From assembly GCF_913775355.1 (NCBI RefSeq), contig NZ_CAJYIU010000044.1:1-33761 (forward strand): a stretch of DNA of 33,761 nt, given 5' to 3'. The first letter of the stretch is position 1; each line of letters starts with the position of its first letter. The DNA is from an uncultured Aureimonas sp. GTDB lineage: Bacteria; Pseudomonadota; Alphaproteobacteria; Rhizobiales; Rhizobiaceae. This document shows positions 3,351-28,419 of the stretch, in pieces. Both the position numbers and the translations under genes were made by a program. The notes under the pieces are model-generated. The model was not told where the DNA came from and did no database searches. It saw nothing but the letters and a program-made list of their open reading frames with translations.

Positions 3351-4058
3351 TCAGCCTTGCTGCTGAGCCAGGATCGCGAGCGCGATCCGCGAGGCGTTGG
3401 CGACGTGGGTCGCGGCGGCTTCCGTGGCCCTCGCGCGGTCGCCGTCACGGATCGAAGACACGATCCTGGCCATCTGCGCGGGGCCCTCCACGCCGCGACG
3501 CTCGGTCTTGATCGTCATCGACCGCAGGTGATTGATGCGCGTGGTCAGCGAGGTCACGATGTTCCAGGCGACGTCGCATTCGGCCTCCGCGAAAAGGACG
3601 CGGTAGAACTCCGTGGTTTCGGCAAGCACGAGACGCCCGTCGCCTTGCGCGTAGGCCGATCGGATCCGCGCGAGCACATCCTCCAGCTTCTCGGCGGCGG
3701 CCGCCCCCCTGTGCTCGGCGCAGATTCCCGCGGCGAGCCCTTCCAGGGCACCGCGGATCTCGTAGATCTGGCGGGCGTCGTCCAGCGTCGTTTCGGCCAC
3801 GATTGGTCCGCGCTGGGGCACGTTGGCGACCAAGCCCTCGGACTCCAGATGCCGCAGCACCTCCCGCACGATCGTGCGGCTGACGCCGAGCTGCTCGCAC
3901 AGATCGCGCTCGACCAAGCGGTCGCCGGGCTTGAAGTAGCGCTCGATGATCGATTCGCGCATCTTCTCGAGCGTCAGTTCGCGCAACGTCCGCTGGGGCC
4001 GCTCGACGCGCATGCTGGGCGCGTTGGGGGAAGACCCTTCAGAGATTGCCGCCGTCAT
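3351..4058 (-). CDS. GntR-family (FCD) transcriptional regulator
   Basis: This 235-residue regulator has an N-terminal winged helix-turn-helix at about residues 20-85 (TLEKMRESIIERYFKPGDRL, ERDLCEQLGVSRTIVREVLR, LESEGLVANVPQRGPIV). An all-helical FCD ligand domain follows (YEIRGALEGLAAGI and later helices). FCD regulators normally repress catabolic operons and are released by the substrate or an early intermediate. The ATG at 4058 is preferred; an in-frame ATG at 4079 is possible. It is the last gene of the ten-gene operon, 38 bases after the ATPase gene, so it would be co-expressed with the pathway it controls. The inverted repeats at 12900-12918 are the best operator candidate. The IS21 relic begins directly after its stop codon. 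Confidence 0.92.
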   Translation of the reverse strand: MTAAISEGSSPNAPSMRVERPQRTLRELTLEKMRESIIERYFKPGDRLVERDLCEQLGVSRTIVREVLRHLESEGLVANVPQRGPIVAETTLDDARQIYEIRGALEGLAAGICAEHRGAAAAEKLEDVLARIRSAYAQGDGRLVLAETTEFYRVLFAEAECDVAWNIVTSLTTRINHLRSMTIKTERRGVEGPAQMARIVSSIRDGDRARATEAAATHVANASRIALAILAQQQG

Positions 4059-4096
4059 CCGTGCCCCGCTCGCTGCCATTCGTCGTCCCGAACCTA

Positions 4097-5179
4097 TCAG
4101 CAAAAGACATGCGTGGCGCGGGGATCGAAGCCCAGCCACACGGTGTCGCCGCGCGACAGGCCCTCGATCGCCGCATGGCCGAAGGGAAGGCGGACGGCGA
4201 CCGGCTCGCCCCATCCGGTGGTCGCCGCGACATGCACGTTCGAGCCGAGGAAGGTGAGATCGCCGACGCGGACGGGCAGGGTCTTGCCGTCGCCCGGCTC
4301 CCGGCGATGGAGGTTGATGCGCTCGGGGCGGAGGAGGAGCGAGCCTGCGTCCCGCCGGCCGTCGCCGCCATGCACGGGAACCCCGGAGACCACGAGATCG
4401 GGCCCGAGCCGAACGTCGGCGTGGCGCCCGTCGGATGACAGGACCGAGCAGGAGAGGAAGTCGCTGTCGCCGATGAACTCCGCCACGAAGCGGGTTGCGG
4501 GGTTCGCGTAAAGCTCCGGCCCCGTGCCGACCTGATCGATCACGCCCTTGGAGAAGACGGCGATGCGGTCGGACATGCGCAGCGCCTCCTCCTGGTCGTG
4601 GGTGACGTAGAGGATCGTCACCTCCGTTTCCTGGTGAATGCGCCGGATCTCGACCTGGATCTCCTCGCGCAGCTTCTTGTCGAGCGCCGATAGCGGCTCG
4701 TCCATGAGAAGCACCGGCGGATCGTAGGCCAGCGCCCGGGCGAGTGCCACGCGCTGCTGCTGGCCGCCCGACATGTCGGCGGGCTTGCGATCCTCGAAGC
4801 CTTCGAGGCGCACGAGCTTCAGCATCGCCTTGACCTTGGCGTCGATCTCGGCGCGCCCTTTCCGCCGGACCTTCAAGGGAAAGCCGATGTTCTCGGCGAC
4901 CGTCAGGTGCGGGAACAGCGTGTAGCGCTGGAACACCATGCCGATCTGGCGCAGGTGGGACGGCGTCGAGAGGAGCGACCGGCCCTCGAGCAGGATGTCG
5001 CCGGCCGTCGGGTCCTGAAACCCGGCGAGGATGTAGAGCGTCGTCGACTTGCCCGAGCCGGACGGCCCGAGGAAGGTCATGAACTCGCCGCGCCGGACCT
5101 CGAGGTTGACGTCCTGCACGGCGGTTACGGAGCCGTAATCCTTGCGGATGCCGCGGATGTGGAGGTAGGGCGCGCTCAC
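4097..5179 (-). CDS. ABC transporter ATP-binding protein, polyamine/POPT type
   Basis: This 360-residue protein energises uptake through the two permeases encoded just upstream. The nucleotide-binding domain shows Walker A GPSGSGKST (38-46), the Q-loop MVFQRYTLFPHL, the signature MSGGQQQRVALARALA, Walker B VLLMDEPLSALD and the H-loop YVTHDQEEA. A C-terminal TOBE-like regulatory domain occupies about residues 240-360, which matches PotA/UgpC-type lengths. The start codon is GTG at 5179, which overlaps the permease stop by four bases (GTGA). The PotA-like signature suggests polyamines, GABA-like compounds or other small amines, but the substrate is not determined. Confidence 0.96.
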   Translation of the reverse strand: MSAPYLHIRGIRKDYGSVTAVQDVNLEVRRGEFMTFLGPSGSGKSTTLYILAGFQDPTAGDILLEGRSLLSTPSHLRQIGMVFQRYTLFPHLTVAENIGFPLKVRRKGRAEIDAKVKAMLKLVRLEGFEDRKPADMSGGQQQRVALARALAYDPPVLLMDEPLSALDKKLREEIQVEIRRIHQETEVTILYVTHDQEEALRMSDRIAVFSKGVIDQVGTGPELYANPATRFVAEFIGDSDFLSCSVLSSDGRHADVRLGPDLVVSGVPVHGGDGRRDAGSLLLRPERINLHRREPGDGKTLPVRVGDLTFLGSNVHVAATTGWGEPVAVRLPFGHAAIEGLSRGDTVWLGFDPRATHVFC

Positions 5180-5976
5180 GACTTGAATCCTTTCCGGACG
5201 AGGGCGACGAGCAGCATCAGGGCGATCGTCAGGAGGACGAGGAGGGTGGAGGCGCTAGCGATGACGGGCGTCAGGTCCTGGCGCAGCGTCGTCCAGATGC
5301 GCACGGGCAGGGTCTGGAGCGTCGGGCTCGCCATGAAGATCGCCAGCACCACCTCGTCCCACGAGGTGAGGAAGGAGAAGATCGCCGCCGAGAACAGGCC
5401 GTGGCCGATGGCCGGCAGCGTAATGCGGACCTTCGCCTCGAGCGGGCTCGCGCCGCAGAGCACCGCCGCGTCCTCGATCGACTTGTCGAACCCTTCCAGG
5501 GCGTTGGTGATGGCGAGGATCGAGAAGGGCAGGGCGACCACGAGATGGGCCAGCACGAAGCCCGTCACCGTGCCGTTGAGCCCGAGCCGCAGGAAGAAGG
5601 CATAGAGCGCGACCGCCAGCACGACAACGGGCAGGATCATCGGCGTCAGGAAGAAGGCCTTCAGCGTCTCCCGGCCGCGGAACCGCCCGCGCACCAGCGC
5701 GAAGGAGGCGCAGAGCCCGATGGCGACGGACAGAACGGTGACGACGGCCGCGATCCGGAAGCTCGTCCACGCGGATTCCAGCCAGCGCGGATCGGCGAAG
5801 AACTCGCGGTACCACTTCAGCGTCCAGGACGGGGGCGGGAAGATCAGCCACTGCGAGGAGCCGAAGGACAGGGCGGCGATGAAGAGGATCGGCAGGAGCA
5901 GGAAGGCCGTGGTCAGGCCGGTGATGCCGAGCAGCACCCACTTCCACCAGCCGAGGCGCGAGAAGTTCAAGAGCAT
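5176..5976 (-). CDS. ABC transporter permease, PotC-like
   Basis: This 266-residue inner-membrane permease has about six hydrophobic segments, the first at residues 12-34. The cytoplasmic coupling loop near residue 175 reads EDAAVLCGASPLEAKVRITLP, an EAA-type motif that docks on the ATPase. It forms the heterodimeric channel with the adjacent permease. A longer upstream frame exists, but it overlaps the first permease out of frame, so the ATG at 5976, two bases after the previous stop, is the real start. Gene order binding protein, PotB-like, PotC-like, PotA-like is a complete importer. Confidence 0.95.
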   Translation of the reverse strand: MLLNFSRLGWWKWVLLGITGLTTAFLLLPILFIAALSFGSSQWLIFPPPSWTLKWYREFFADPRWLESAWTSFRIAAVVTVLSVAIGLCASFALVRGRFRGRETLKAFFLTPMILPVVVLAVALYAFFLRLGLNGTVTGFVLAHLVVALPFSILAITNALEGFDKSIEDAAVLCGASPLEAKVRITLPAIGHGLFSAAIFSFLTSWDEVVLAIFMASPTLQTLPVRIWTTLRQDLTPVIASASTLLVLLTIALMLLVALVRKGFKS

Positions 5977-5978
5977 GG

Positions 5979-6854
5979 TCAGCGCCCCGCCATCTCGGAG
6001 GTTCCAAACAGCTTGAGCTGCATGGCGTAGAGCGCGAGCGTCGCGACCAGGAGCACGAAGGCCGCGGCCCCGCCCATCCCCCAGTTGACGAGGCTTTGCA
6101 CGAACTGCGCGATGAGCTCGGCCAGCATCATGTTGCTGGTGCCCCCGAGAAGCGCAGGCGTCACGAAGTAGCCGAGAGACATCACGAACACCATGAGGGC
6201 GCCGGCGGCCATGCCGGGGGCTGCGAGCGGCAGGAGGATGCCGCGCAGGCACTGCCAGCGGGTGGCCCCGCAGAGCGCCGCCGCCTGGAGGATCGACGGG
6301 TCGATGCGCCGGATCACGCCGTAGAGCGGCAGGATGATGAAGGGCAGCATGATGTAGACCATGCCGATCGTGACGCCGACGAGGTTGTTGACCAGCGTCA
6401 GGGGAGCGTCGATCAGGCCGAGGTTCATCAGCGTCTTGTTGACGATGCCCGTGCGCTGGAGAAGCACCATCCAGGCGTAGGTGCGGGCGAGGAGGTTCGT
6501 CCACATCGACAGGAGCAGGATCGCGAAGACGATGCGCGCCCAGTGCGCCGGCATGATCGCAAGCGTCCACGCGACGGGAAATCCGACGAGGAGCGAGATC
6601 AGCGTGACGAGACCGGACACGAGGAACGTGTTGAGGAAGACGCGCAGGTAAGTCGACGACCCGAGGAGTTGAGCATAATTGCCGAGCCCCGGCGCCGGCT
6701 CCGTCACGCTGCGCAGGAGCAGCGAGACCACGGGGACGACGAAGAACAGCGCCAGGAGAAGCAGGGCGGGGACCGCCGGGCCGAGGCCGGCCGGCAGCCA
6801 CCGATGCGTCGGTCGCCGCAGCGCGAGCGCGGCCTCGTTCGATGCGTGCGTCAT
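5979..6854 (-). CDS. ABC transporter permease, PotB-like
   Basis: This 291-residue membrane protein has a basic N-terminus, a first transmembrane helix at about 27-48 and five or more later helices. The EAA loop reads LQAAALCGATRWQCLRGILLP. It is the partner of the PotC-like permease, and both belong to the binding-protein-dependent inner-membrane component family. The gene begins 112 bases after the binding-protein gene, across a strong stem-loop. That arrangement normally keeps permease expression below that of the binding protein. Confidence 0.95.
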   Translation of the reverse strand: MTHASNEAALALRRPTHRWLPAGLGPAVPALLLLALFFVVPVVSLLLRSVTEPAPGLGNYAQLLGSSTYLRVFLNTFLVSGLVTLISLLVGFPVAWTLAIMPAHWARIVFAILLLSMWTNLLARTYAWMVLLQRTGIVNKTLMNLGLIDAPLTLVNNLVGVTIGMVYIMLPFIILPLYGVIRRIDPSILQAAALCGATRWQCLRGILLPLAAPGMAAGALMVFVMSLGYFVTPALLGGTSNMMLAELIAQFVQSLVNWGMGGAAAFVLLVATLALYAMQLKLFGTSEMAGR

Positions 6855-6922
6855 GGGTTCACCATCCTGTCGGAGGAGCGCGGCCCGAGGGGCCCGTACC
6901 GCGGCCGTCCTCGGGGTCGGTC

Positions 6923-6957
6923 GGGGCGGTGTCGGAGTCGAGCTCCGCCACCGCCCC
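6923..6957 (-). terminator. Intercistronic stem-loop between binding protein and permease
   Basis: GGGGCGGTG pairs with CACCGCCCC, and inside these CGGAG pairs with CTCCG around a five-base loop, with one T/C mismatch in a stem of about 15 positions. It lies 10 bases after the binding-protein stop (minus strand) and before the permease start. No U-run follows, so it is more likely an mRNA-stabilising or partial-termination element than a full terminator. Confidence 0.7.
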
Positions 6958-6966
6958 GCCGCCGCC

Positions 6967-7974
6967 TTACTGGGCCTGCCAGGCGTACCAGCGCGTGCCG
7001 ATCTCGTCCCGGTGCTCCGCCCAGTAGTTCATGTCGGCGTTGACCTGGGCGGCCTTCTGCTGATCGGGAAGCGTCTTGGCGATGGTCGGGTCCATCAGCG
7101 CCGCCGAGTCGAGGTTGGTCGGGGCGTAGCCGGTGGCGGCCGCCATGTCGGCCTGGGCCTGGGGCGAGCTTGCGAGCGCGATGAACTTCATCGCCGCCGC
7201 CTTGTTCTTGGCGCCCTTCGGCACGACGAGGGAGTCGGCCGCCGTGATGTTGTTGTCCCACGAGGTCTCGACCGTGATCCCGTCGGCGGCGAGCGCGGTG
7301 AGGCGGCCGTTCCAGAAGGAGCCGATGGGCGCCTCGGCGGAGGCGAGGAGCTGCTGCGACTGCGCGCCGCCCGACCACCAGATGATGTCGGACTTGATCG
7401 TGTCGAGCTTCTTGAAGGCGCGGTCGAGGTCGAGCGGGTAGAGCTTGTCGGCAGGAACGCCGTCGGCGAGCAGCGCCGCCTCAATCACGCCGGGCGCCGA
7501 CCATTTGTAGAAGGTCCGCTTGCCGGGGAACTTGGCCGTGTCGAAGAGGTCGGCCCAGGTCTTGGGACAGGCGGACACCGCGTCGGCGTTGCAGCCGATC
7601 ACGAAGGAATAATAGAACGAGCCGACGGAATGGTCGGTCACGAAGCGCGGGTCGAGCTTGGTCTTGTCGATCACCGTGAAGTCGAGAGGTTCCAGAAGCC
7701 CCTGCTTGCCGGCCTGGACGGCGTAGTCGCCCTCGACGTCGACGGCATCCCAAGTGACCCCGTTCGCCTCGACCATGGCCTTCAGCTTGCCGTAGTCGGT
7801 CGGGCCATCCATCAGGACGTTGGTGCCCGTCTCGGCGGTGAACTTGTCGGCCCAGGCCGCCTTCTGGGCGTCCTGCGTGGTGCCGCCCCAGCTCGTGAAC
7901 ACCATGTCCTCGGCTCGGGCGATGCCGGAGAGCGCGAGGGTTGCCCCCAGTGCCGCGATGATGGTCGTCTTCAT
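6967..7974 (-). CDS. Periplasmic solute-binding protein, PotD/PotF type
   Basis: This 335-residue exported protein has a signal peptide (MKTTIIAALGATLALSGIARA). The mature region opens with EDMVFTSWGGTTQDAQKAAW, the usual start of extracellular solute-binding proteins of the spermidine/putrescine-like group. It captures the substrate in the periplasm and hands it to the permease pair encoded next. A GGGAGG box with 8-base spacing supports the ATG at 7974. The ligand cannot be read from sequence. The neighbouring monooxygenase and dehydrogenases argue for an organic amine or N-containing compound. Confidence 0.95.
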   Translation of the reverse strand: MKTTIIAALGATLALSGIARAEDMVFTSWGGTTQDAQKAAWADKFTAETGTNVLMDGPTDYGKLKAMVEANGVTWDAVDVEGDYAVQAGKQGLLEPLDFTVIDKTKLDPRFVTDHSVGSFYYSFVIGCNADAVSACPKTWADLFDTAKFPGKRTFYKWSAPGVIEAALLADGVPADKLYPLDLDRAFKKLDTIKSDIIWWSGGAQSQQLLASAEAPIGSFWNGRLTALAADGITVETSWDNNITAADSLVVPKGAKNKAAAMKFIALASSPQAQADMAAATGYAPTNLDSAALMDPTIAKTLPDQQKAAQVNADMNYWAEHRDEIGTRWYAWQAQ

Positions 7975-8044
7975 GCTCGTTTCCTCCCGAATGGTTGCGT
8001 TGCAGGTCGTCGTTGCGGCGCCGGCCTCCCGCCGGTCGCCATGG

Positions 8045-9517
8045 TCAGCGCATGACGAAAGGGTCCGGGATCGGATCGTCGGACGTCCTCAGCCACACGG
8101 TCTTCGTGCGGGTGTAGTCGAGCGCGGCGGCGAGCCCGCCCTCGCGGCCATGGCCGGAAAGCTTGGTGCCGCCGAAGGGCGCGATCGGCGAGACGGCGCG
8201 GTAGGTGTTGACCCAGACGATGCCCGCACGGATCGCGCGCACCATGCGATGCGCCTTGGCGAGGTTCGTGGTGAAGACGCCGGACGCAAGGCCGAAGGCC
8301 GTATCGTTCGCGAGCGCCACGGCCACGGCCTCGGTCTCGAAGGACACGACGGACAGGACCGGTCCGAAGAACTCCTCCTTAAGACCGGGCGCATCCGCAC
8401 CGTCGCAGTCGAGGATGGTCGGCGGATAGTAGTTGCCGGGTCCCTCCGGCGTGCGACCGCCCGTCACGATCCGCGCGCCCGCGTCCGCGGACCGATCGAC
8501 CAGCCGCTGGATATGGTCGCGCTGACGCGCCGTGCAGAGGGGCCCGACCTCGGTCGCCATGTCGAGCGGAGCCCCGATCGCGACGCGCTCGGCCTTCTCC
8601 TTCAGGATGGCGAGGAAGCGATCCTTCACGCTCTGCTCGACGAGGAGGCGCGAGCCCGCGACGCAGCTCTGGCCGGTGGCCGCGAAGATCGCGGCGACCT
8701 GGGCGTTGGCGGCGCTCTCGAGGTCGGCGTCGGCGAAGACGACGAAGGGCGACTTGCCGCCGAGCTCCAGCGAGGTCGAGGCGAGGTTCTCGGCCGAGGC
8801 GCGCACCACGTGCCGCGCCGTCTCCGGGCCGCCCGTGAAGGCGACGTGGGCGACGAGCGGGTGGCGCGTCAGCGACGAGCCGCAGGCCGGCCCGAAACCG
8901 GTGACGACGTTGACGACGCCCGCCGGAAAGCCGGCCTCGTGGACGAGCCGTGCGAACGCGAGAAGCGGCGCGGGCCCGTCCTCGGACGCCTTGACCACGA
9001 GCGTGCAGCCTGCGGCGAGCGCCGGGCCGATCTTCACCGCCGCCAGGAAGAGCTGGCTGTTCCAAGGTACGATGGCTGCCACGACGCCGATCGGCTCGCG
9101 GCGGGTCCAGACCTCCATGTCCGGCTTGTCGATCGGCAGGACCGCGCCCTCGATCTTGTCGGCAAGGCCCGCGTAGTAGCGGTAGTAGTCGGCGACATAG
9201 GCGATCTGGGCCGACGTCTCGCGGATGATCTTTCCCGTGTCGCGCGTTTCCAGTTCGGCCAGGTCCTGCGCCTTCGCGGCGACGAGATCGGCGAGGCGAT
9301 AGAGGAGCTTGCCGCGCTGCGTCGCGTTGAGCTTCGGCCATTCGCCCTCGCGCAAGGCACGGTCGGCGGCGCGCACGGCGCGGTCGACGTCGGCCTCGCG
9401 CGCCTCGGGCATCTCCGCCCACGGCTCGCCGGTCGACGGGTCGAGGCTTGCGAACCGTGCTTCGCCGTCCACGAACGCGCCGTCGATATAGGCCTGGAAG
9501 CGGCGCATCGCGGTCAT
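8045..9517 (-). CDS. NAD(P)-dependent aldehyde dehydrogenase
   Basis: This 490-residue ALDH-superfamily enzyme oxidises an aldehyde to its acid. The active-site Glu lies in SLELGGKSPFVVFADADL and the catalytic Cys in ATGQSCVAGSRLLV. The cofactor-domain motif PWNSQLFLAAVKIGPALAAG is also present. Length and motifs resemble betaine-aldehyde or hydroxymuconic-semialdehyde type members. Its ATG at 9517 overlaps the monooxygenase stop by four bases, so the two are coupled. That suggests it removes the aldehyde produced by the oxygenase step. An in-frame ATG at 9508 is an alternative start. Confidence 0.95.
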   Translation of the reverse strand: MTAMRRFQAYIDGAFVDGEARFASLDPSTGEPWAEMPEAREADVDRAVRAADRALREGEWPKLNATQRGKLLYRLADLVAAKAQDLAELETRDTGKIIRETSAQIAYVADYYRYYAGLADKIEGAVLPIDKPDMEVWTRREPIGVVAAIVPWNSQLFLAAVKIGPALAAGCTLVVKASEDGPAPLLAFARLVHEAGFPAGVVNVVTGFGPACGSSLTRHPLVAHVAFTGGPETARHVVRASAENLASTSLELGGKSPFVVFADADLESAANAQVAAIFAATGQSCVAGSRLLVEQSVKDRFLAILKEKAERVAIGAPLDMATEVGPLCTARQRDHIQRLVDRSADAGARIVTGGRTPEGPGNYYPPTILDCDGADAPGLKEEFFGPVLSVVSFETEAVAVALANDTAFGLASGVFTTNLAKAHRMVRAIRAGIVWVNTYRAVSPIAPFGGTKLSGHGREGGLAAALDYTRTKTVWLRTSDDPIPDPFVMR

Positions 9518-10554
9518 GCGCCGAAGGCCGGCATGACGCGTTCGATGAAGCGCTCCAGCGAGGCCTTCTTGCGCTCGAACGGCATGCCCGTGTCGATCCA
9601 GAACGAATACTCGTCGTAGCCCATCGCCTCGTAGGCCCTGAGGCGGGCGATCACGTCCTCGGCGCCGCCGACGACGTTGTTGGCGCGCATCGCGGCGGCC
9701 GAGATCATCGGATTGGCGGCGAGTTCCTCCTCGCTGAGGCGCTGGATGAGGCCCTGATGGACCGGGCGCTCGTTCTTGAACCAGGCGAAGAAGTAGTTGT
9801 AGTAGACCGACAGCTCGCGCGCGGCTTCCGCGACATCCGTCTCGTCCGAGCCGACATAGGTGTGGCGCAGGAGCATGATCTTCGGGCGCGCCGTGCCGGG
9901 GCTCGCCGCGCAGGCCGCGTTGAAGCGGTCCATCAGCGTCTTCACCTCGTTGTCGTCCTGCCACAGCGGCGTCACCTGCACGTTGCAGCCGTTGGCGACG
10001 GCGAATTCATGGCTGTTCGGGTCGCGCGCCGCCACCCAGATCGGCGGTCCCTGCTGCTGCACGGGCTTGGGCGCGGAGGTGGTGGACGGGAACGTCCAGA
10101 ACTCGCCCTCATGGGCGTAGTCGCCCTCCCAGAGGGCCTTCACGGCCGGGATCAGCTCGCGCATGCGCTGGCCGGCGCCCCAGGCGTCGAGGCCCGGATG
10201 CAGTCGCTCGTACTCGTAGGAGTAGGCGCCGCGGGCGATGCCGATGTCGAGCCGGCCGCGCGTGATGAGGTCGGTCATCGCCGCCTCGCCGGCGAGCTTG
10301 ATCGGGTGCCAGAAGGGCGCGATCACCGTGCCGGTGCCAAGGCGCGCGGTCTTCACGTGGTTGGCGAGGTCGGCGATCGTGACGAACGGGTTCGGCGCGA
10401 TGGTGAAGTCCATGCCGTGATGCTCGCCGGTCCAGATGGCGTGCATGCCGCCCCGGTCGGCGATCCGGCAGAGTTCGAGGAACTCCTCGTAGAGATCCTC
10501 TTGACGCTGGCTCGCGTCGAGACGCTCCATGTGGACGAACAGGGAGAACTTCAT
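9514..10554 (-). CDS. LLM-class flavin-dependent monooxygenase
   Basis: This 346-residue bacterial-luciferase-like (beta/alpha)8 enzyme uses FMNH2 and oxygen to oxidise an organic substrate. Family features include the start MKFSLFVHMERLD, the segment IWTGEHHGMDFTIAPNPF, the region around RLGTGTVIAPFWHPIKLAGE, and DIGIARGAYSYEYERL. The reduced flavin would come from the flavin reductase encoded three bases upstream, so the pair is a two-component monooxygenase. Homologues act on alkanesulfonates, pyrimidines, chelators and similar compounds. The substrate here is unknown. Confidence 0.94.
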   Translation of the reverse strand: MKFSLFVHMERLDASQRQEDLYEEFLELCRIADRGGMHAIWTGEHHGMDFTIAPNPFVTIADLANHVKTARLGTGTVIAPFWHPIKLAGEAAMTDLITRGRLDIGIARGAYSYEYERLHPGLDAWGAGQRMRELIPAVKALWEGDYAHEGEFWTFPSTTSAPKPVQQQGPPIWVAARDPNSHEFAVANGCNVQVTPLWQDDNEVKTLMDRFNAACAASPGTARPKIMLLRHTYVGSDETDVAEAARELSVYYNYFFAWFKNERPVHQGLIQRLSEEELAANPMISAAAMRANNVVGGAEDVIARLRAYEAMGYDEYSFWIDTGMPFERKKASLERFIERVMPAFGA

Positions 10555-10557
10555 GGG

Positions 10558-11484
10558 TCAGGCCCTTCCGGCGAGCGGATGGACCCGGCCCGCGGTTTCG
10601 TTTCCGAAGTAGACGCCGAAGTTGCCAAGGGTGCTCTCGGCGGCGAAGCGGCGCAGGATGTCGGCCGTCTGCGGCGTGTCGAGGCGGTCCATCGGCAGGT
10701 CGTCCAAGGCGAAGAAACGCCCCTCGCGCGGCGCGCCGTCGGCGGCCCCGGCACGGTAGACGATGGTCTGGCGGCCGCTCGCGCGGTCCTCGAAGACGGA
10801 GAACAGGAAGCCCGCGTTGATGGCGACCCCCGTCGCCCCCTCGACGCCCGCCTGGATTGCCTCGACGGGTTCGCGCTCGCCAAGCACCGCCGACGGCAGG
10901 GCGAAGCGACCGCCTTCCGTCGGCACGAGGAGAACCGCGCCGTCGCGCTCGACCACGGCCGACACCCGCGTGTCCGCCTCTCCCGCCGCGCGCATGGCCT
11001 TCGCCTCGAGCGCCGGGGTGAAATAGCCGCCGCGAACGTAGCCGAGCCCGTTGCGCCCGGAGTTCTCGAAGCCGGCGACGCGGCCGATCAGGATGGCGTG
11101 GTCGCCGGCGTCGACGATCTGTTCCGGCGTGCAGTCGAACCAGGCGCTCGCGTCCGGAAAGATCGGCGAGCCCGCCGGGCCGTCGCGCCAGTCCACCGCC
11201 GCGAAACGGTCCTCGACGGGCCGCGCGAAGGTGTTGGAGACGTCCTTCTGGTCCTCGGACAGGATGTTCACCGCAAAGGCGGCGGCGCCCGTCATGTTGG
11301 CGTAGTTGCGGGAGGTCTTGGCAAGGCACACGAGGAGAAGCGGCGGGTCGAGCGACACGGAGGCGAAGGAGTTCGCCGTGAAGCCGATGGGCGCGCCGTC
11401 GGCCGTCCGGCTGGTCACGACCGTCACCCCGGTGGCGAAGGCGCCGAAGGCGTCACGCAGCGCGCGCGGATCGAATGCCGTCAT
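10558..11484 (-). CDS. Flavin reductase fused to a degenerate Nudix-fold domain
   Basis: This is a 308-residue protein. Residues 1 to about 160 form a split-barrel flavin reductase: RDAFGAFATGVTVVTSRTADG, then IGFTANSFASVSLDPPLLLV, CLAKTSRNY and AAFAVNILSEDQ. It would supply FMNH2 to the adjacent monooxygenase. Residues from about 170 to 285 resemble a Nudix fold (TRVSAVVERDGAVLLVP, then LPSAVLGEREPVEAIQAGVE). In the Nudix box the usual REUXEE metal-binding residues read AGVEGA, so hydrolase activity is probably lost. The ATG at 11484 is chosen over 11487 because the GGGAGG box at 11491-11496 then has 6-base spacing. It belongs to the same operon as the hydrolase 19 bases upstream. Confidence 0.92.
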   Translation of the reverse strand: MTAFDPRALRDAFGAFATGVTVVTSRTADGAPIGFTANSFASVSLDPPLLLVCLAKTSRNYANMTGAAAFAVNILSEDQKDVSNTFARPVEDRFAAVDWRDGPAGSPIFPDASAWFDCTPEQIVDAGDHAILIGRVAGFENSGRNGLGYVRGGYFTPALEAKAMRAAGEADTRVSAVVERDGAVLLVPTEGGRFALPSAVLGEREPVEAIQAGVEGATGVAINAGFLFSVFEDRASGRQTIVYRAGAADGAPREGRFFALDDLPMDRLDTPQTADILRRFAAESTLGNFGVYFGNETAGRVHPLAGRA

Positions 11485-11503
11485 CATCGTCCTCCCAAGT
11501 GGT

Positions 11504-12289
11504 CTAGCGTTGGAGCCAGCGGACGAGGTGACCATTCACCTCGTCCGGGGCCGTCAGGTTCACCATGTGGCGGTGGCCGCGGATGGTTACCGCCTCGCCT
11601 CGGGGCGCGGCCTCCGCCATCGCCTCCGCCATGGCCGGCGTCGAATTCGGATCGCCGTCGCCCGTCATGAAGAGGGCTGGGCAGTGCACGTCGGCCCAAG
11701 CGTCGGCATAGGTCTCGTCGCCGCCGGCAAAGGCGGCGTAGGCGGTGGCGTATCCGGCGGGATCGACGCCCGAAAGCCAGCCGCGCGTCAGCCGGTAGGC
11801 GTCCTCCGTCTCCGGATCGTCGCCGAACCAGCGTCGGAGCGGCGCTTCCAGATCGACGCCGCCCGCGGCGATCTCCCGAGCACGATGAAGCACGGCCTCG
11901 CGCGCGTCCGGCGTGCGCCGATAGACGCCGTTGAGAAGCGCGACGCGCCGGACGCGGGACCCCAGCGTCGCGGCCGCGCCCCCCGCGATCAGAGCGCCCA
12001 TGGAATGGCCCGCGACGTTCGCGGCCTCGATGCGAAGCTCGTCCAGCACCCGAGCCAGCCAAGCCACGAAGGCGGGAAGCGCCGAGCCCTCGGCCAGCGG
12101 CGCGCTTTCGCCATGCCCTGGCATGTCCAGCGCGACGATGCGGTGGGTGCGCGACAGCGCCGCCATCTGCGGCGCCCAGGCTTCCAGGCGCATGCCGACA
12201 CCGTGGATCAGGACCAGCGGCTCGCCGGCGCCCGCCTCCACGAAGGCCGTGCCGCTCTGCGTCCTAGACCGCTGCGGGGTTGGCGACAT
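11504..12289 (-). CDS. Alpha/beta hydrolase
   Basis: This 261-residue alpha/beta-hydrolase-fold enzyme has an oxyanion region IHGVGMRLEAW and the strand LDMPGHGES. The nucleophile elbow is GHSMG (Ser96). A likely acid Asp lies in TGDGDPNSTP and the catalytic His in RGHRHMVNL. It would cleave an ester, amide, lactone or C-C bond produced in the pathway. The start overlaps the end of the AA_synth gene by 26 bases, showing tight coupling. RutD-like proteins beside LLM oxygenases are a parallel, but identity with RutD is not claimed. Confidence 0.93.
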   Translation of the reverse strand: MSPTPQRSRTQSGTAFVEAGAGEPLVLIHGVGMRLEAWAPQMAALSRTHRIVALDMPGHGESAPLAEGSALPAFVAWLARVLDELRIEAANVAGHSMGALIAGGAAATLGSRVRRVALLNGVYRRTPDAREAVLHRAREIAAGGVDLEAPLRRWFGDDPETEDAYRLTRGWLSGVDPAGYATAYAAFAGGDETYADAWADVHCPALFMTGDGDPNSTPAMAEAMAEAAPRGEAVTIRGHRHMVNLTAPDEVNGHLVRWLQR

Positions 12290-12860
12290 CGTGCCCCAGA
12301 TCCTTCAGGTCCTGATAGCGGTCGCCGATCCGGTGATGCGGGCGACCGCCGACGGAGGCGCCGAGGGCGACGAGGATCTCGCCCGCCGCAGGCGCGTCGG
12401 GCACCGACGTCTGGATCGTCAGGTAGTGGGAGCGGCGGCCCTCGTCGTTCTTGTCCATCAGCGGGATCATCACCGGCGCGTTGGCCGGCCCCCGCGTGTT
12501 GCAGAAGGCGAGGTAGGACTTGGCGCCGACCGCCTGGCGGTAGTGGTTGCCGAAGCGCAGCGTGTGGATCAGCGCCGACGCGTGCTCGATCTCGCCGTCG
12601 AGGCCGACGACGGCCGACTTGCCGTAGGCCTCCACCGCCTCGCCCGAGCCGACCGCCTCGAGGATCATGCGGGTCAGGAGCTCGCCGAGGATCGGGGCAC
12701 CCGCGTGGATCTCCGGCTTCAGGTCGTCGACGAAGCCGCGGCCGGCCCAGGGATTGCGGACCACCGCGATGGCGGTGAACAGCTTCAACGGCTTCGATGC
12801 GGCCTTGCCGCCCTCGACCAGCGTCGTCTCGACCTGCAGCAGCGTCTTGCGGATGTCCAT
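12264..12860 (-). CDS. Amino acid synthesis family protein (PF06684, DUF1185)
   Basis: This 198-residue protein matches the AA_synth/DUF1185 family from start to end: MDIRKTLLQVETTLVEGGK, then AVVRNPWAGRGFVDDL, GKSAVVGLDGEIEHASALIH, TLRFGNHYRQAV and VALGASVGGRPHHRIGDRYQD. As I recall, solved members have a variant of the Bacillus chorismate mutase fold and no proven reaction. It is the first gene of the operon. An AAGGCGG box lies just upstream of the ATG, and a promoter candidate is at 12896-12925. Position and family suggest a ring-opening or amidohydrolase-like step, but that is inference. Confidence 0.9.
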   Translation of the reverse strand: MDIRKTLLQVETTLVEGGKAASKPLKLFTAIAVVRNPWAGRGFVDDLKPEIHAGAPILGELLTRMILEAVGSGEAVEAYGKSAVVGLDGEIEHASALIHTLRFGNHYRQAVGAKSYLAFCNTRGPANAPVMIPLMDKNDEGRRSHYLTIQTSVPDAPAAGEILVALGASVGGRPHHRIGDRYQDLKDLGHDVANPAAV

Positions 12861-12875
12861 GAGCCGCCTTTCCGA

Positions 12876-12903
12876 TTGACCTTTGCGATGACAATCTTAT
12901 GGT
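12876..12903 (+). promoter_or_regulatory. Promoter candidate for the divergent aldehyde dehydrogenase
   Basis: TTGACC (12876-12881) and TATGGT (12898-12903) are separated by 16 bases. The -10 box overlaps the operator candidate and the -10 box of the opposite promoter, so one repressor could control both directions. Confidence 0.5.
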
Positions 12904-12925
12904 ATGCCAACATATGGCCTGTCAA
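12896..12925 (-). promoter_or_regulatory. Promoter candidate for the ten-gene operon
   Basis: On the minus strand a perfect -35 box TTGACA (12925-12920) is followed after 18 bases by CATAAG (12901-12896), a 4/6 match to the -10 consensus. It would start transcription about 25-30 bases before the AA_synth ATG. The spacer holds the inverted repeats listed at 12900-12918. Confidence 0.55.
12900..12918. promoter_or_regulatory. Operator candidate for the GntR/FCD regulator
   Basis: Two overlapping inverted repeats share a half-site: TGGTATGCCA (12900-12909; arms TGG/CCA, central AT) and GCCA-N5-TGGC (12906-12918). Short palindromes of this kind with a central AT are typical GntR targets. The site lies between the -35 and -10 of the minus-strand promoter and over the -10 of the plus-strand promoter, which suits repression. 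No direct binding evidence exists. Confidence 0.55.
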
Positions 12926-12973
12926 TTCGGCTCGTCGATTTTCTCTCTCCACGTCGTGCACCAAGGACATGCG

Positions 12974-14434
12974 ATGAACCCGATCGCCGAAAACCCGCTC
13001 TTCCGGCAGCAGGCCTTCTGCGGCGGCGAGTGGGTCGCCGCCACGTCGTCCGGGGCGACCTTCACCGTCCTCGATCCAGCCGACGGCGCGGTGCTGGCGA
13101 CCCTGCCGAACATGTCTGCGGCCGACGCTCGGGAGGCCATCGCGGCTGCGGCCATCGCGCAGAAGGCCTGGGCGAGGGAGCCGGCCAAGGCCCGCGGCAA
13201 GGTTCTCAGGCGCTGGTTCGACCTCGTTGTCGAACACGTCGAGGATCTGGCCCACATCCTCACCGCCGAGCAGGGCAAGCCGCTCGCCGAGGCCAGGACG
13301 GAGGTCCTGTCGAATGCGGCCTATCTCGAATGGTTCGCGGAGGAGGCCAAGCGGCTCGACGGCGAGATCATTCCCGGCCCCGACCCCTCCCAGCGCATCC
13401 TGGTGCTTCGCCAGCCCGTCGGAGTCTGCGCCGCGATCACGCCCTGGAACTTCCCGAACGGGATGATCACGCGCAAGGTCGGCCCGGCGCTCGCCGCCGG
13501 CTGCGCCATGGTGCTCAAGCCATCGGAACTGACGCCCTTGTCCGCGCTGGCGCTGGCGGTCCTCGCCGAACGGGCCGGGCTTCCGAAGGGCGCGTTCTCC
13601 GTCATCACGACGACGGACGCCAAGGCCTTCGGCACGGAGGTCACCACCAACCCGACCGTCGCGAAGATCACCTTCACCGGCTCCACCGGGGTCGGGCGCT
13701 GGCTGATGCGCGAGGGCGCCGGGCAGATCAAGAAGCTGTCGCTCGAACTCGGCGGCAACGCCCCCTTCATCGTCTTCGACGACGCCGACCTCGACGCTGC
13801 GGCCGACGGCGCGCTCGCCTCCAAGTTCCGAAACGCCGGCCAGACCTGCGTCTGCTCCAACCGCATCTACGTCCAGCACGGGGTGGCGGAGGCGTTCACG
13901 CAGAAGTTCCTGGGGCGCGTGGGCGCGCTCAAGCTCGGCCGCGGCACCGGGGAGGGCGTGACGATGGGGCCTCTCATCGACGAACGTGCGGTCGCCAAGA
14001 TCGAGGCGCACATCGCCGACGCGGTGGCCAAGGGCGCGAGCGTTGTCGCGGGCGGCGGGCGCTCAGTGCTCGGCGGCACCTTCTTCGAGCCGACGGTGAT
14101 GACGGGCATCGAGCAGGGCATGCTGGTGACGCGCGAGGAGACGTTCGCCCCGCTCGCCCCGATCATCGTCTTCGACACGGAGGAGGACGTGATCGCCATG
14201 GCCAACGACTCCGAGTTCGGGCTCGCCGCTTACTTCTACGCGCGAGACATGAGACGGGTGTTCAAGGTGGCCGAGGCGCTCGAGACCGGCATGGTCGGCG
14301 TCAATACCGCGGCGCTCGCCAACGAAGCGGCGCCCTTCGGCGGCGTGAAGCAGTCCGGCATCGGCCGGGAAGGCTCTCGCCATGGCATCGAGGGCTACCT
14401 CGAAATCAAGTACGTGGCGCTAGCGGGTTTGTAG
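12974..14434 (+). CDS. NAD-dependent aldehyde dehydrogenase, succinate-semialdehyde type
   Basis: This 486-residue ALDH is of GabD/SSADH-like type. Visible motifs are the substrate/cofactor segment TPWNFPNGMITRKVGPALAA, catalytic Glu in LSLELGGNAPFIVFDDADL and catalytic Cys in NAGQTCVCSNRIYV. The C-terminal motif EAAPFGGVKQSGIGREGS is also present. It would oxidise succinate semialdehyde or a similar short omega-acid aldehyde, feeding the TCA cycle. The frame is open back to 12899, but the ATG at 12974 follows an AAGGA box with 6-base spacing and starts just before the conserved N-terminus. It is transcribed away from the ten-gene operon across a shared control region, so co-regulation is likely. 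Confidence 0.94.
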   Translation: MNPIAENPLFRQQAFCGGEWVAATSSGATFTVLDPADGAVLATLPNMSAADAREAIAAAAIAQKAWAREPAKARGKVLRRWFDLVVEHVEDLAHILTAEQGKPLAEARTEVLSNAAYLEWFAEEAKRLDGEIIPGPDPSQRILVLRQPVGVCAAITPWNFPNGMITRKVGPALAAGCAMVLKPSELTPLSALALAVLAERAGLPKGAFSVITTTDAKAFGTEVTTNPTVAKITFTGSTGVGRWLMREGAGQIKKLSLELGGNAPFIVFDDADLDAAADGALASKFRNAGQTCVCSNRIYVQHGVAEAFTQKFLGRVGALKLGRGTGEGVTMGPLIDERAVAKIEAHIADAVAKGASVVAGGGRSVLGGTFFEPTVMTGIEQGMLVTREETFAPLAPIIVFDTEEDVIAMANDSEFGLAAYFYARDMRRVFKVAEALETGMVGVNTAALANEAAPFGGVKQSGIGREGSRHGIEGYLEIKYVALAGL

Positions 14435-14621: not shown

Positions 14622-15260
14622 TCAGCTTCTCGACGCAAGCGTTTCCGACACGAGCCGTGCCCCGAGAATGCCGATCACGGCGCCCGCGGCGCGGTCGAGC
14701 CATACCTTCGATCGTAGATAGGCTGCGCGCGGCCGCTGCGCCGAGAACGCGACAGCCACAACGGTATACCACGAGGACTCCAGCACCAGAACGAGCGGCG
14801 GAAGGGCGGCGTAGAGCAACGCAGGTGCAGGAGCCGGCAAAAGGGCGGCGAAGATGCTGGCGTAGACGATGGCCGTCTTCGGATTGCTGAGTTGCGTGAC
14901 GAGGCCGAGCGCGAACGAACGGGGCACCGTCGATAGTCGAACTGCCTCCGCGTCCGGGAGATCAAGCGGCTCGGTCGCCCCGCGCCAAATCCGGGTGCCG
15001 AGATAGACGAGGCACAAGCCGCCAAGCACGCGCAGCACGATGTACAGCCACTCCACCTGGAGGAGGAGCGTCACAAGGCCAAGCAGCGCGAGCGTGGCGA
15101 AGATCGCCCCCCCAACGCCCATGCCGAGCGCTGCGGCCAATCCATCCCGGCGGGATAATTTCAGTGAGATGCGGGATACGAGGACGAAGCTCGGGCCGGG
15201 ACTGACGGCCCCGACGAGCAGCGCTCCGAGGATACCGAGTAGGGCAAGGGACGCGGACAT
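14622..15260 (-). CDS. LysE/RhtB-family amino-acid exporter
   Basis: This 212-residue membrane protein is predicted to export amino acids or derivatives. It has about six hydrophobic segments. The first helix carries the family hallmark LVGAVSPGPSFVLVSRISLK, followed by DGLAAALGMGVGGAIFATLA. The motif LVTQLSNPKTAIVYASIFAA in the middle is also diagnostic. The ATG at 15260 begins directly before the first helix, so I prefer it to the longer frame from 15338. The gene is convergent with the dehydrogenase and stands alone. Nothing ties it to the neighbouring pathway except position. Confidence 0.93.
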   Translation of the reverse strand: MSASLALLGILGALLVGAVSPGPSFVLVSRISLKLSRRDGLAAALGMGVGGAIFATLALLGLVTLLLQVEWLYIVLRVLGGLCLVYLGTRIWRGATEPLDLPDAEAVRLSTVPRSFALGLVTQLSNPKTAIVYASIFAALLPAPAPALLYAALPPLVLVLESSWYTVVAVAFSAQRPRAAYLRSKVWLDRAAGAVIGILGARLVSETLASRS

Positions 15261-15877: not shown

Positions 15878-17824
15878 ATGACAATCAGCATCAAGACCCG
15901 CCTGGTGGCTTGTCTCGCCGGGCTCGGCATCGCCGTCTGCCTCAACGGTGTGATCGGCTTCGCATCGCTTCACGATGTCGAGGGGCGCCTCCAGTCGGTC
16001 GTGGAGAATCGCGTCGTGCCGTTGCAGCAGCTTAAGGAGGCTGCCGACATGTACGCCGTGAACATCGTCGACGCGACCCATAAGACCCGATCCGGTGTAT
16101 TCACCTGGGACGACGCGTCGGCCAGCATCGCAGCGGCCGAGACGTCCATCACCCGCAACTGGCAAGCGTATCTCGCAACCGAACTGACGCCGCAGGAGGC
16201 CGTCCTGGCGGAACAAGCCAAGGCCGACATGCTCCAAGCAGACAAGGGCGTCGCCAAGCTGAAGGGCATCCTTGGGAGCCGTGACGTCGCGGGCCTCGAT
16301 ACCTTCGTTGCGAGGGAGCTTTATCCCGTCATCGATCCGGTCTCGGTCGCGATCGGAAAGCTCGTCGCACTCCAGATCGATGTCGCTCGAAAGGACTACG
16401 CTATTGCCGCAGAGGATTACCGTTTCACGCTCAGCGTGATGGCGGCGATCGCCGCCTTCTCCTTGGCGATCTTTGCGTTTGCCGTTGCGACCACCATTCG
16501 CCAGGTGACGTCCCCGATGGGTCGTATGACGGCGATGATGCGTCGGCTCGCGGCAGGAGATCACGCCGTCGAGGTCCCCGACCTGCAGCGCGAGGACGAG
16601 ATCGGCGAGATGGCCAAGGCCGTCCAGGTGTTCAAGGAAGCCGCCATCGAGCAGCAGCGACTGGAGGCGGCAGAGGTCGAAGCACGCAAGGCCGCCTCGG
16701 CCGCCCGGGAGCGCCAGGCGGAGATCGATCGCGCCCGAACGGAAGACCTCGGCGCCTTCGTCTCGTGTGTCGGGGAGAGCTTCGATCGGCTGTCTGCGGG
16801 TGATCTGACCGTGCGGATGACCCAGCGCGTCGCGCCTGAGTTCGAACCCGTCCGGGCGCAGTTCAATGGTTCGATCGAAAAGCTCGACCACACGATCGGC
16901 AACGTGGTCGGGTCGATCGGCGCGATCCGAACTGGTCTGAACGAGATCAACGTCGCCTCCAGCGATCTTGCCCAGCGCACCGAGCAGCAGGCGGCAAGCC
17001 TGGAAGAAACCGTGGCAGCGCTCGGCGAGGTGACGCGCGCCGTCAACGAGACGGCGCAGAATGCCAACCAGGCTCGAACCAGCGCGCAGAAGGCACAGCA
17101 CACGGCACAGAACGGCGGCGAGATCGTCGGACGCGCGATCGAAGCCATGCAGACGATCGAGCAGTCGTCCGCCAAGATCGGCGACATCATCGGGGTGATC
17201 GACGAGATCGCCTTCCAGACGAACCTCCTCGCTCTCAACGCAGGCGTCGAAGCGGCCCGCGCCGGCGAGGCGGGCCGGGGCTTTGCGGTGGTGGCGCAGG
17301 AGGTGCGCGGTCTCGCCCAGCGTTCGGCCGAGGCAGCCAAGGAGATCAAGACGCTGATCCAGGCGTCGAGTAAGCAGGTGGCCTCGGGTGCCGAACTCGT
17401 CAGTGCGTCCGGCAACAGCTTGTCGGACATCATCGTCGAGGTCGGGCACGTCAGTCGCGCCGTGTCCGAGATCGCTCAGCGGGCCAAAGAGCAGGCCGTG
17501 AGCTTGCGAGAAGTGTCGACGGCGGCGGACCAGATGGACAAGGTCACGCAGCAGAACGCGGCGATGGTGGAGCAGGCGACGGCGGCGGCGCAGACGCTGT
17601 CGAACGAGACGGACGAACTGGCCCGCCTCATTGCAGATTTCAGGACGGCGGCCACCGCCAACCATGCCCACCAGAGCGAGCGTGCGGTTCAGCGCACCGC
17701 GAGGGGCGCCCCGCGCACCGCCGCTCCGACGGCACGCACAGTCCGTCCCGCCGTCCAGATAAAGCCTGTCGCGCGAGGTAACGCGGCGCTGAAGACGCTG
17801 AAGGACGAGTGGGCGGAGTTCTGA
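15878..17824 (+). CDS. Methyl-accepting chemotaxis protein with CheR-tether tail
   Basis: This 648-residue chemoreceptor has a first transmembrane helix at about 8-30. A helical periplasmic domain of the four-helix-bundle type follows, and the second membrane helix is at about 184-206. A HAMP domain covers about 205-258 and a second HAMP-like segment about 299-340 ([13 protein letters not shown]). The kinase-control hairpin tip at about 443-478 contains [20 protein letters not shown] and [14 protein letters not shown]. The chain ends in EWAEF, which fits the x-aromatic-x-x-aromatic pentapeptide that docks CheR/CheB on long chemoreceptors. It signals to CheA at the inner membrane. No che genes lie nearby, so it is an orphan receptor. 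The ligand is unknown. Confidence 0.96.
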
Positions 17825-19019: not shown

Positions 19020-19967
19020 CTAGCGGCGGTCCTGCCAGGACAGGAACAGCATCATTCCGACCAGCGCCCCTCCCACGAAGATGAGTTGCGCGTGCTGGCT
19101 GATATTGTTGATCTGAAGGATGTTGGTGAGGATCGAGACGATCAGCACGCCAGACAGGACGCCGAACACCGACCCGACGCCGCCGGCCAACCGGACCCCG
19201 CCCACAACCACCATGGTGATGGCGACGAGCTCCAGCCCGATGCCGGCATTGGGGTCGCCGATCCCGAGCCGGCTGGACGAGATCACCCCCGCCAGCGCGG
19301 CCAGGAACCCGCTCACGACATAGACGGAGACCTTGACCCGCGTCACCTGGATGCCGAACAGGCCGGCCGTTTCCTCAGATCCGCCGACCGCGTAGATCCG
19401 GCGGCCGTAGCGCGTGTGGTTGAGCACGACGTAGGCGGCGGCGAAGGCGACGATCAGGTAAAAGACGCCGTTGGGAACGTCGCCGATCCGCCCTTGCGCG
19501 ATCGCGTTGAACTCGGCCGGGATCCCTTCGAACAGCGGCGCTCCGTCGGTCATGAAATAGATCACGGAGCGCACGGCGATCATCGTCGCCAGAGTGGCGA
19601 TGATCGGCTCCATCCGGCCCTTGGTGATGAGTAGGCCGTTGACGCAACCGATCGCGGCGCCGAACAGGAGGGCGCCGCCGATCGCGACGGGGATCGGATA
19701 TCCCTGTGCGACCAGAAGGGCGACCGTCACGTTGCCAAGGCCCATGACCGATCCGACGGACAGATCGATGCCCCGCGCCAAGATCACGAACATCATGCCG
19801 ACGGAGATGATGGCCGGCTCTGCCGCGTATTGGAGGATGTTGAGGATGTTGGTCAGATGGGCGAACCTGTCTGACGTCACGGCGCCGAGGACCAGGAGGG
19901 CGCCCACGACCATGACCGGCATATAGTCCAATGCCGGCGTTCTCCTCGCAACGTTCGCATGCGTCAT
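19020..19967 (-). CDS. Sugar ABC transporter permease, CUT2/RbsC type
   Basis: This 315-residue membrane permease has eight to ten hydrophobic segments. The family hallmark GIDLSVGSVMGLG appears near residue 75, GCVNGLLITKGRMEPIIATL near 115, and the YAVGGSEETAGLFGIQVTRV loop near 200, which is the EAA-like ATPase contact. The ATG at 19967 is preferred to the longer frame from 20072. It is the second permease of the operon and ends it. Two different permeases with one fused ATPase suggest a heterodimeric channel. Confidence 0.95.
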   Translation of the reverse strand: MTHANVARRTPALDYMPVMVVGALLVLGAVTSDRFAHLTNILNILQYAAEPAIISVGMMFVILARGIDLSVGSVMGLGNVTVALLVAQGYPIPVAIGGALLFGAAIGCVNGLLITKGRMEPIIATLATMIAVRSVIYFMTDGAPLFEGIPAEFNAIAQGRIGDVPNGVFYLIVAFAAAYVVLNHTRYGRRIYAVGGSEETAGLFGIQVTRVKVSVYVVSGFLAALAGVISSSRLGIGDPNAGIGLELVAITMVVVGGVRLAGGVGSVFGVLSGVLIVSILTNILQINNISQHAQLIFVGGALVGMMLFLSWQDRR

Positions 19968-20052
19968 GACGGCAACTCCGGTACGTCTCTCGACGGTTTC
20001 CTGGCTTTCGGACGGAAGACGGGGACGGGCGGGTGACGCACCGCCGACGCCG

Positions 20053-21600: not shown

Positions 21601-21602
21601 GA

Positions 21603-22589: not shown

Positions 22590-22740
22590 CGAATGCCCTT
22601 CCTACTGATCCGCAGGTCTTGGGAGGTAAGGTGAATCAGCCGATCGGCACCGCGTGCGCCGGGTCCATCAGCTCACAGCGACGGACGGTCGCGAGGCGGG
22701 TGCGCCGGATGACGCCGTGAAGGTGCGAGTGAGGCGGTCC

Positions 22741-22760
22741 AAGGTTTAGAAAGGTTTAGA
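22741..22760. repeat. Tandem 10-base repeat AAGGTTTAGA x2
   Basis: Two adjacent perfect copies of AAGGTTTAGA lie in the intergenic region between the BKACE gene and the first permease. They stand out as AT-rich in a GC-rich stretch. Repeats this close could bind a regulator or be chance. Confidence 0.5.
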
Positions 22761-22850
22761 CTCGTGGCGCAGCCTCTGGCCTGTTCCGCCGGCGGCGACC
22801 GCTCTGAGGTCGGTTCCGCCCGAGGAGACTCGGCCGGAGGCAGGGCGCCG

Positions 22851-22880
22851 GCCATCGCACCCAGCCTCAGGTGCGATGGC
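22851..22880 (-). terminator. Perfect 11-bp stem-loop after the BKACE gene
   Basis: GCCATCGCACC and GGTGCGATGGC are perfect reverse complements around an eight-base loop. It lies 45 bases after the BKACE stop (minus strand) and about 260 bases before the permease start. It may attenuate read-through or protect the upstream mRNA. No U-run is visible. Confidence 0.7.
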
Positions 22881-22925
22881 GAGCCTTGAGGGCGCGCCCG
22901 CGTCGGCAGGCGCCAAGCGAACCGG

Positions 22926-23912: not shown

Positions 23913-23963
23913 ACTAATATCTCCCATTACGGTATGGTGTAACGATCATCATGTCGGAACGAG

Positions 23964-23997
23964 CGGTGCCGATACGTCTTCCCGCATATCGGCACCG
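23964..23997 (-). terminator. Perfect 11-bp stem-loop between binding protein and BKACE
   Basis: CGGTGCCGATA and TATCGGCACCG are perfect reverse complements around a 12-base loop. It follows the binding-protein stop by 50 bases and precedes BKACE. It probably protects the binding-protein mRNA or reduces downstream expression, as in many ABC operons. Confidence 0.7.
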
Positions 23998-24015
23998 TCG
24001 GGTCTGGTCCGCGGG

Positions 24016-28415: not shown

Positions 28416-28419
28416 GGGT

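Follow-up and report, generated by a model that had tools for sequence, protein, structure and literature searches.

A putative trigonelline (tgn) uptake and degradation locus in an uncultured Aureimonas sp.

A pathway for the degradation of trigonelline (N-methylnicotinate) was reportedly described in Acinetobacter baylyi ADP1 by Perchat and colleagues in 2018, and this work is said to be the origin of the tgn gene names and of the chemistry of each step. TgnB of that strain carries the UniProt accession Q6F9F6 (excerpts of PMC11354265). Trigonelline accumulates in higher plants, its aromatic ring is opened by TgnA/TgnB, and Ruegeria pomeroyi grows better on trigonelline than on homarine (excerpts of PMC8269262). 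Wild-type S. meliloti grows on trigonelline and a ΔpSymA strain does not, a difference used to tell the two apart (excerpts of PMC4207669). Here, we analyzed a stretch of 33,761 nucleotides (the window; contig NZ_CAJYIU010000044.1, assembly GCF_913775355.1) from an uncultured Aureimonas sp. whose genome comprises 4.2 Mb in 337 contigs. We conclude, at a probability of about 0.92, that a compact locus at positions 3351-14434 encodes trigonelline uptake and degradation, its substrate and activities being assigned by orthology to tgn. The pathway itself would be a known one, newly placed in this genome; modest additions concern its operator, its swapped importer, and the domain make-up of its flavin reductase.

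The link to tgn came from searches of plasmid records. The luciferase-like monooxygenase (LLM) of the window matched 326 records and, among the 60 matches listed, annotated rhizobial plasmid records name the LLM by enzyme class only. A second search with the A. baumannii ortholog (L107) as query led to Acinetobacter sp. PK01 (NZ_CP094644.1; L115), where the match is annotated as tgnB, the oxygenase component of a flavin-dependent trigonelline monooxygenase. The PK01 neighborhood comprises a divergent GntR gene, followed by genes for an AA_synth (DUF1185) protein, a hydrolase, tgnA, tgnB, tgnC, a cytosine permease, one hypothetical protein, a succinate-semialdehyde dehydrogenase (SSADH), and a CMD family protein. 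Both clusters contain GntR, AA_synth, hydrolase, TgnA, TgnB, and TgnC genes in the same order, an SSADH gene, and the same palindrome. They differ in transport, with a cytosine-permease-type gene in PK01 and an ABC importer in the window; moreover, in PK01 a DUF1330 gene lies beside GntR, GntR is divergent, and SSADH is downstream. The initial annotation had held that no assigned pathway has exactly this gene set, a claim contradicted by the Acinetobacter tgn cluster, which is a close homolog with the same genes and in which tgnA, tgnB, and tgnC are annotated. Its proposal of a small nitrogen-containing substrate that passes through uptake, oxygenation, hydrolysis, and aldehyde oxidation to end as succinate semialdehyde matches the trigonelline route.

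All genes named in the initial annotation exist as open frames in the open reading frame list of the window, and its gene content was confirmed by Pfam and, for SSADH, by NCBIfam. Ten genes occupy the minus strand (3351-12860), which agrees with its description of a ten-gene operon; the divergent SSADH gene makes the locus one of eleven. From the promoter, the order on the minus strand is AA_synth/DUF1185, alpha/beta hydrolase, flavin reductase, LLM, aldehyde dehydrogenase (ALDH), solute-binding protein, two permeases, ABC ATPase, and GntR/FCD. The locus is compact as had been described; however, with the chosen starts, start/stop overlaps occur at three joints only (ALDH/LLM, 4 bp; ATPase/permease 2, 4 bp; hydrolase/AA_synth, 26 bp) and the remaining six minus-strand joints are gaps of 2-112 bp. 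An alternative reductase start at 11535 would create an overlap with the hydrolase as well. The features are as follows.

3351-4058, minus strand: GntR/FCD transcription regulator, proposed regulator of the cluster (Pfam GntR and FCD; start ATG 4058 chosen; 42% identity to the GntR protein beside tgn in PK01)
4097-5179, minus strand: ABC importer ATPase, Pot/Phn-type (Pfam ABC_tran and TOBE_2; best NCBIfam model PhnT2, 343 bits against a cut-off of 458, then potA, 326 against 356, both below cut-off)
5176-5976, minus strand: ABC importer permease 2 (Pfam BPD_transp_1; start ATG 5976)
5979-6854, minus strand: ABC importer permease 1, PotB-like (Pfam BPD_transp_1; best NCBIfam model PotB, 166 of 348 bits)
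6967-7974, minus strand: periplasmic solute-binding protein (Pfam SBP_bac_8; best NCBIfam model PotD, 60 of 582 bits; 83% identity in S. meliloti pSymA, L108)
8045-9517, minus strand: ALDH (Pfam Aldedh), putative TgnC counterpart (70% identity over 485 aa to annotated tgnC of PK01; GQSC and LELGGK motifs)
9514-10554, minus strand: LLM (Pfam Bac_luciferase), putative TgnB counterpart and ring-opening oxygenase (71% identity over 345 aa to annotated tgnB of PK01; tree)
10558-11487, minus strand: flavin reductase (Pfam Flavin_Reduct) with a C-terminal Nudix-like domain, putative TgnA counterpart (46% identity over 299 aa to annotated tgnA; ortholog alignment matches PDB 3RH7 over its full length)
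11504-12289, minus strand: alpha/beta hydrolase, putative TgnD counterpart (51% identity to the PK01 hydrolase before tgnA; GHSMG, DPN, and GHRHM motifs)
12264-12860, minus strand: AA_synth (DUF1185, PF06684), putative TgnF counterpart (Pfam, 223 bits; 71% identity to the PK01 gene; relation of the family to TgnF from excerpts of PMC7913881)
12897-12912, no strand assigned (minus strand TGTTGGCATACCATAA): predicted operator palindrome between the divergent genes (3 mismatches to TTATGGTATACCATAA)
12974-14434, plus strand: SSADH, putative TgnE counterpart, divergent (NCBIfam SSADH above cut-off; 53% identity to the PK01 SSADH; start 12974 chosen)

The seven window proteins with PK01 counterparts (LLM, ALDH, reductase, AA_synth, hydrolase, SSADH, and GntR) are one-to-one best matches at the identities listed above. 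For the two-component oxygenase, the 46% (TgnA) and 71% (TgnB) identities to annotated genes extend over nearly the full length, and the tree agrees. Each aldehyde dehydrogenase of the window prefers its own PK01 partner (70 and 53% identity, compared with 35 and 34% when swapped); the TgnC counterpart is only 35% identical to the other ALDH of the PK01 cluster. The PK01 tgnC product is named (Z)-2-((N-methylformamido)methylene)-5-hydroxybutyrolactone dehydrogenase. The hydrolase occupies the same place between AA_synth and tgnA as its PK01 counterpart, which is named just alpha/beta hydrolase, and its GHSMG and RHM motifs are present in 11 aligned tgn-type rows and absent from three others. 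The divergent ALDH passes the NCBIfam SSADH model (671 bits; cut-off 646), in addition to its identity to the PK01 SSADH. The importer ATPase, permease 1, and solute-binding protein resemble Pot- and Phn-type NCBIfam models at scores that all fall below cut-off and denote family resemblance; permease 2 is assigned from Pfam.

Under the proposed assignment, the Pot-type ABC importer (4097-7974) would import trigonelline. The luciferase-like oxygenase TgnB (9514-10554), receiving reduced flavin from the flavin reductase TgnA (10558-11487), is then predicted to cleave the C5-C6 bond of the ring and yield an N-methylformamido-methylene hydroxybutyrolactone. TgnC (8045-9517) would oxidize the hydroxybutyrolactone to (N-methylformamido)methylene-succinate, and TgnD (11504-12289) would split this product, releasing methylamine, formate, CO2, and succinate semialdehyde. 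Finally, the divergent SSADH, TgnE, may convert the semialdehyde to succinate, aided by the DUF1185 protein TgnF. The chemistry from ring cleavage onward reportedly follows the 2018 work of Perchat and colleagues. On the PK01 plasmid (L115:1453-8407), purU, folD, and sarcosine-oxidase-like genes lie directly upstream of tgn and would suit the handling of released formate and methylamine.

The rhizobial counterpart would link the locus to a growth phenotype. On S. meliloti pSymA (CP140958.1), genes for GntR, AA_synth, hydrolase, reductase, LLM, ALDH, a NIPSNAP protein, the solute-binding protein, two permeases, the ATPase, and SSADH follow one another, flanked by noeB and the nifT/nifB block. 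This cluster has the same core, ABC importer, GntR, and SSADH in one neighborhood at 58-85% identity; in contrast to the window, its GntR gene is ahead of the operon, a NIPSNAP-family gene is added, and SSADH follows the ATPase on the same strand. Since the ΔpSymA strain fails to grow on trigonelline, the S. meliloti ortholog provides independent support for trigonelline as the substrate. Going by its title, a 1991 paper by Goldmann is said to have mapped trigonelline genes to the symbiotic region of pSym, and the pSymA cluster is probably this region of the classical trc genes.

We also examined how widely the cluster is conserved. A genome search with the LLM yielded at least 570 confirmed relatives among at least 591 stretches, of which the best 80, from rhizobial and related genera and 75-89% identical, were kept. 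The core was defined as the genes for AA_synth, hydrolase, flavin reductase, LLM, and ALDH, and counted in 95 loci, i.e., 101 loci (L013-L102 and L107-L117, the latter hand-picked from match lists and not a random sample) minus six with an LLM below 60% identity (L019-L022, L112, L113). The five-gene core is complete in 93 of these 95 loci, so the arrangement is not due to chance; of the other two, L018 truly lacks it and L044 is a 3.4-kb fragment. Nearly all 95 loci are alphaproteobacterial, with four from beta- or gammaproteobacteria (L107, L111, L115, L116), and the core also occurs on a plasmid of another Ruegeria strain. A Pot-type importer is present in 85 loci and a cytosine-permease-type gene in four, one of which (L116) has both. 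In Mesorhizobium ciceri pMESCI01 (L114:8205-10004), a single 599-residue frame, annotated just as a hydrolase, encodes both the hydrolase and the flavin reductase; this fusion supports a shared pathway.

Distribution at the genome level is patchy. Within the genus of the window, two of 21 genomes (G000 and G019, the window's own genome included) have an LLM at 60% identity or more, and seven do so among all 61 related genomes (G000, G019, G023, G029, G031, G054, G040). Within a sample of the phylum, LLM matches at E ≤ 1e-60 turned up in 23 of 398 genomes: 15 at 61% identity or above (the window's genome counted), five at 49-53%, and three at 39-42%. One genome of the same order, G040 (loci L018, L020, L021, L022), carries 29 LLM matches.

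A conserved palindrome accompanies the cluster. Enrichment of 8-mers upstream of AA_synth gave GGTATACC, and a 16-base consensus, TTATGGTATACCATAA, was derived from those same upstream regions. Allowing up to four mismatches, 91 of 94 stretches carry this consensus in the 250 bases upstream of AA_synth; the 94 include the window and at least one duplicate, L015 and L079 being one location. Among 1880 random 250-base controls drawn from the same set of loci, which may contain the site itself, 43 had a match. The three stretches lacking a site are L017, L026, and L086, although for L086 the wrong stretch was taken (offset 4029). A later set independent of the consensus (L122-L127) was scanned over the whole 20 kb rather than upstream of AA_synth alone, and five of six loci had a site with at most two mismatches; four of those five have an LLM just 49-52% identical. 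No match to AA_synth, hydrolase, or ALDH was found in the stretches examined for L122 and L123, two of these four, which are hence not shown as full clusters. The PK01 site, between its GntR and AA_synth genes, matches the consensus perfectly.

In the window, the site at 12897-12912 is the only place within four mismatches of the consensus. It overlaps the -10 element of a promoter-like site for the divergent SSADH (12876-12903, plus strand) and comes after a TTGACA on the minus strand. We propose that the GntR protein acts at this predicted operator to repress the two divergent transcripts until an inducer is present.

The flavin reductase carries a 140-residue tail. Searched alone, this tail matched no Pfam family in the proteins of the window and S. 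meliloti and gave weak matches in two others. A profile of 40 reductase orthologs matched PDB 3RH7 from end to end (E 1.2e-159), and profile positions 172-296 weakly reached PDB Nudix entries (E 0.012). The S. meliloti pSymA reductase is nearly identical to 3RH7, which appears in Foldseek as S. meliloti 1021 SMa0793. An AlphaFold model of the reductase (predicted local distance difference test, pLDDT, 79; predicted TM-score, pTM, 0.52) had 3RH7 as its top Foldseek match, covering 292 columns and both domains at 62% identity, with a TM-score of 0.41 and a root-mean-square deviation near 14; given these values and the pTM, the domain orientation is unsure. The Nudix box is degenerate and not conserved in the reductase. 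The fold implied by the initial name, a Nudix-fused reductase, is therefore probably right, but Nudix hydrolase activity is unlikely.

The DUF1185 protein may assist TgnE. According to excerpts of PMC7913881, which cites the trigonelline pathway paper, TgnF, a relative of the DUF1185 protein HcdD, stimulates TgnE-dependent oxidation of succinic semialdehyde in A. baylyi ADP1, and the authors could not show a similar effect for HcdD. The DUF1185 fold is Bacillus chorismate mutase-like (excerpts of PMC2954203). We did not adopt the role in amino-acid synthesis that the Pfam name implies; as far as the excerpts of that structure paper go, it is based on fold and genome context. It is conceivable, though rather unlikely, that the protein is an enzyme or chaperone for the unstable ring-opened intermediate and DUF1185 a recurrent partner of luciferase-like ring-cleaving oxygenases; we rated this lower because AA_synth is near the LLM in just two of six loci of a second LLM clade (in the same gene run in L113, about 6.5 kb off in L112) and was not seen in L019-L022. 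In favor of this reading stand the place of AA_synth in the five-gene core and the fold of RutC of the Rut pathway, which is similar to that of DUF1185 proteins.

Given this second clade, the gene set alone does not identify the substrate. Clusters of this type lie on Ensifer canadensis pT173c (L112:7463-12271) and Agrobacterium fabrum pAt (L113:7466-13255) and consist of genes for flavin reductase, ALDH, LLM, hydrolase, and a carboxymuconolactone-decarboxylase-family protein, with NIPSNAP and AA_synth also present in L113. They contain the same enzyme families as the window, with AA_synth on the other strand in L112, but their LLMs are just 40-43% identical, the gene order differs, and amino-acid or ProX-type ABC genes are nearby. 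No palindrome with three or fewer mismatches was found in L112, L113, or L018. The second clade may encode a related pathway. Its existence, and the variation of importers between lineages, would suit a pathway of the same type acting on another N-methylpyridinium or pyridine compound (homarine, N-methylnicotinamide, or nicotinate derivatives), with trigonelline a side substrate or unused. We consider this improbable: in a tree of 33 LLM rows, the clade at about 40% identity (six rows) is split at 100/100 support from the window LLM, which groups with annotated TgnB at 71% identity, and the S. meliloti ortholog fits the pSymA trigonelline phenotype. The clade holds program-flagged long branches, and the deeper order of the tgn-type rows is not settled by this tree. 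TgnA/TgnB is also argued to be unlikely to act on homarine (excerpts of PMC8269262). No paper title concerning a homarine gene cluster emerged from our literature search, which also yielded nothing direct on pathways for pyridine or other small N-heterocycles; the accessible portions of PMC9723723 and PMC12817926 make no mention of trigonelline, and those of PMC4213383, PMC10228743, PMC11633110, and PMC12239276 contain nothing on these genes.

Two further explanations appear to have almost no chance of being correct. The LLM, flavin reductase, and alpha/beta hydrolase are the same trio of families as in the Rut pathway of pyrimidine degradation, and a RutA/RutF/RutD-like variant could be envisaged. 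Nevertheless, SSADH and AA_synth are not known to be part of Rut, and the families known for RutB, RutC, and RutG are not represented among the eleven genes. This candidate was rejected on NCBIfam scores, since the RutF and RutD models fall below cut-off (94 of 255 and 57 of 239 bits, respectively), and the RutA model is absent among the 25 listed of 26 LLM matches. That unrelated genes are simply packed together with no single pathway is equally hard to credit. Such a reading would suit the opposite orientation of SSADH and the lack of linkage of transporter and SSADH in some relatives, but the near-universal five-gene core, the M. ciceri fusion, and the common upstream palindrome speak for a unit.

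Several observations weigh against assigning the locus to trigonelline. The orthology link runs through Acinetobacter sp. PK01, whose tgn names are record annotation, and not through the A. baylyi ADP1 proteins; the PK01 hydrolase, AA_synth, GntR, and SSADH genes bear no tgn names. TgnA identity is just 46%, and the ABC importer is unlike the cytosine-permease-type gene of Acinetobacter. Linkage is imperfect: the 65% identical LLM of G040 (L018) has the flavin reductase as its sole adjoining core gene, an SSADH of at least 55% identity is linked in just 23 of 98 loci, and L127, with a full core, has no palindrome within three mismatches across the 20 kb scanned. AA_synth is not exclusive to the pathway, being present in 18 of 61 related genomes compared with seven for the tgn-type LLM (≥60%). 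As for methylamine use, no type III glutamine synthetase (TIGR03105) scored above cut-off in the genome.

Beyond the locus, no counterpart of a LysE gene (14622-15260) reached 40% identity in any of the 98 tabulated loci, and a chemoreceptor with a TarH-like ligand-binding domain by Pfam (15878-17824) lies slightly further out. The region 19020-25145 is perhaps another small catabolic cluster, in which a beta-keto acid cleavage enzyme (BKACE, PF05853) gene (22926-23927) adjoins one for a sugar-type periplasmic binding protein (24048-25145), along with frames resembling ABC transporter genes. A metallo-beta-lactamase-fold protein is encoded at 27573-28541.

Taken together, a locus of "unknown substrate" becomes a named, testable pathway, which would correct annotation. 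The conserved palindrome gives direct access to the regulator, and the locus bears on one scientific point, namely the role of the DUF1185 protein in the pathway. Given its patchy distribution, the tgn cluster would mark strains able to feed on trigonelline.

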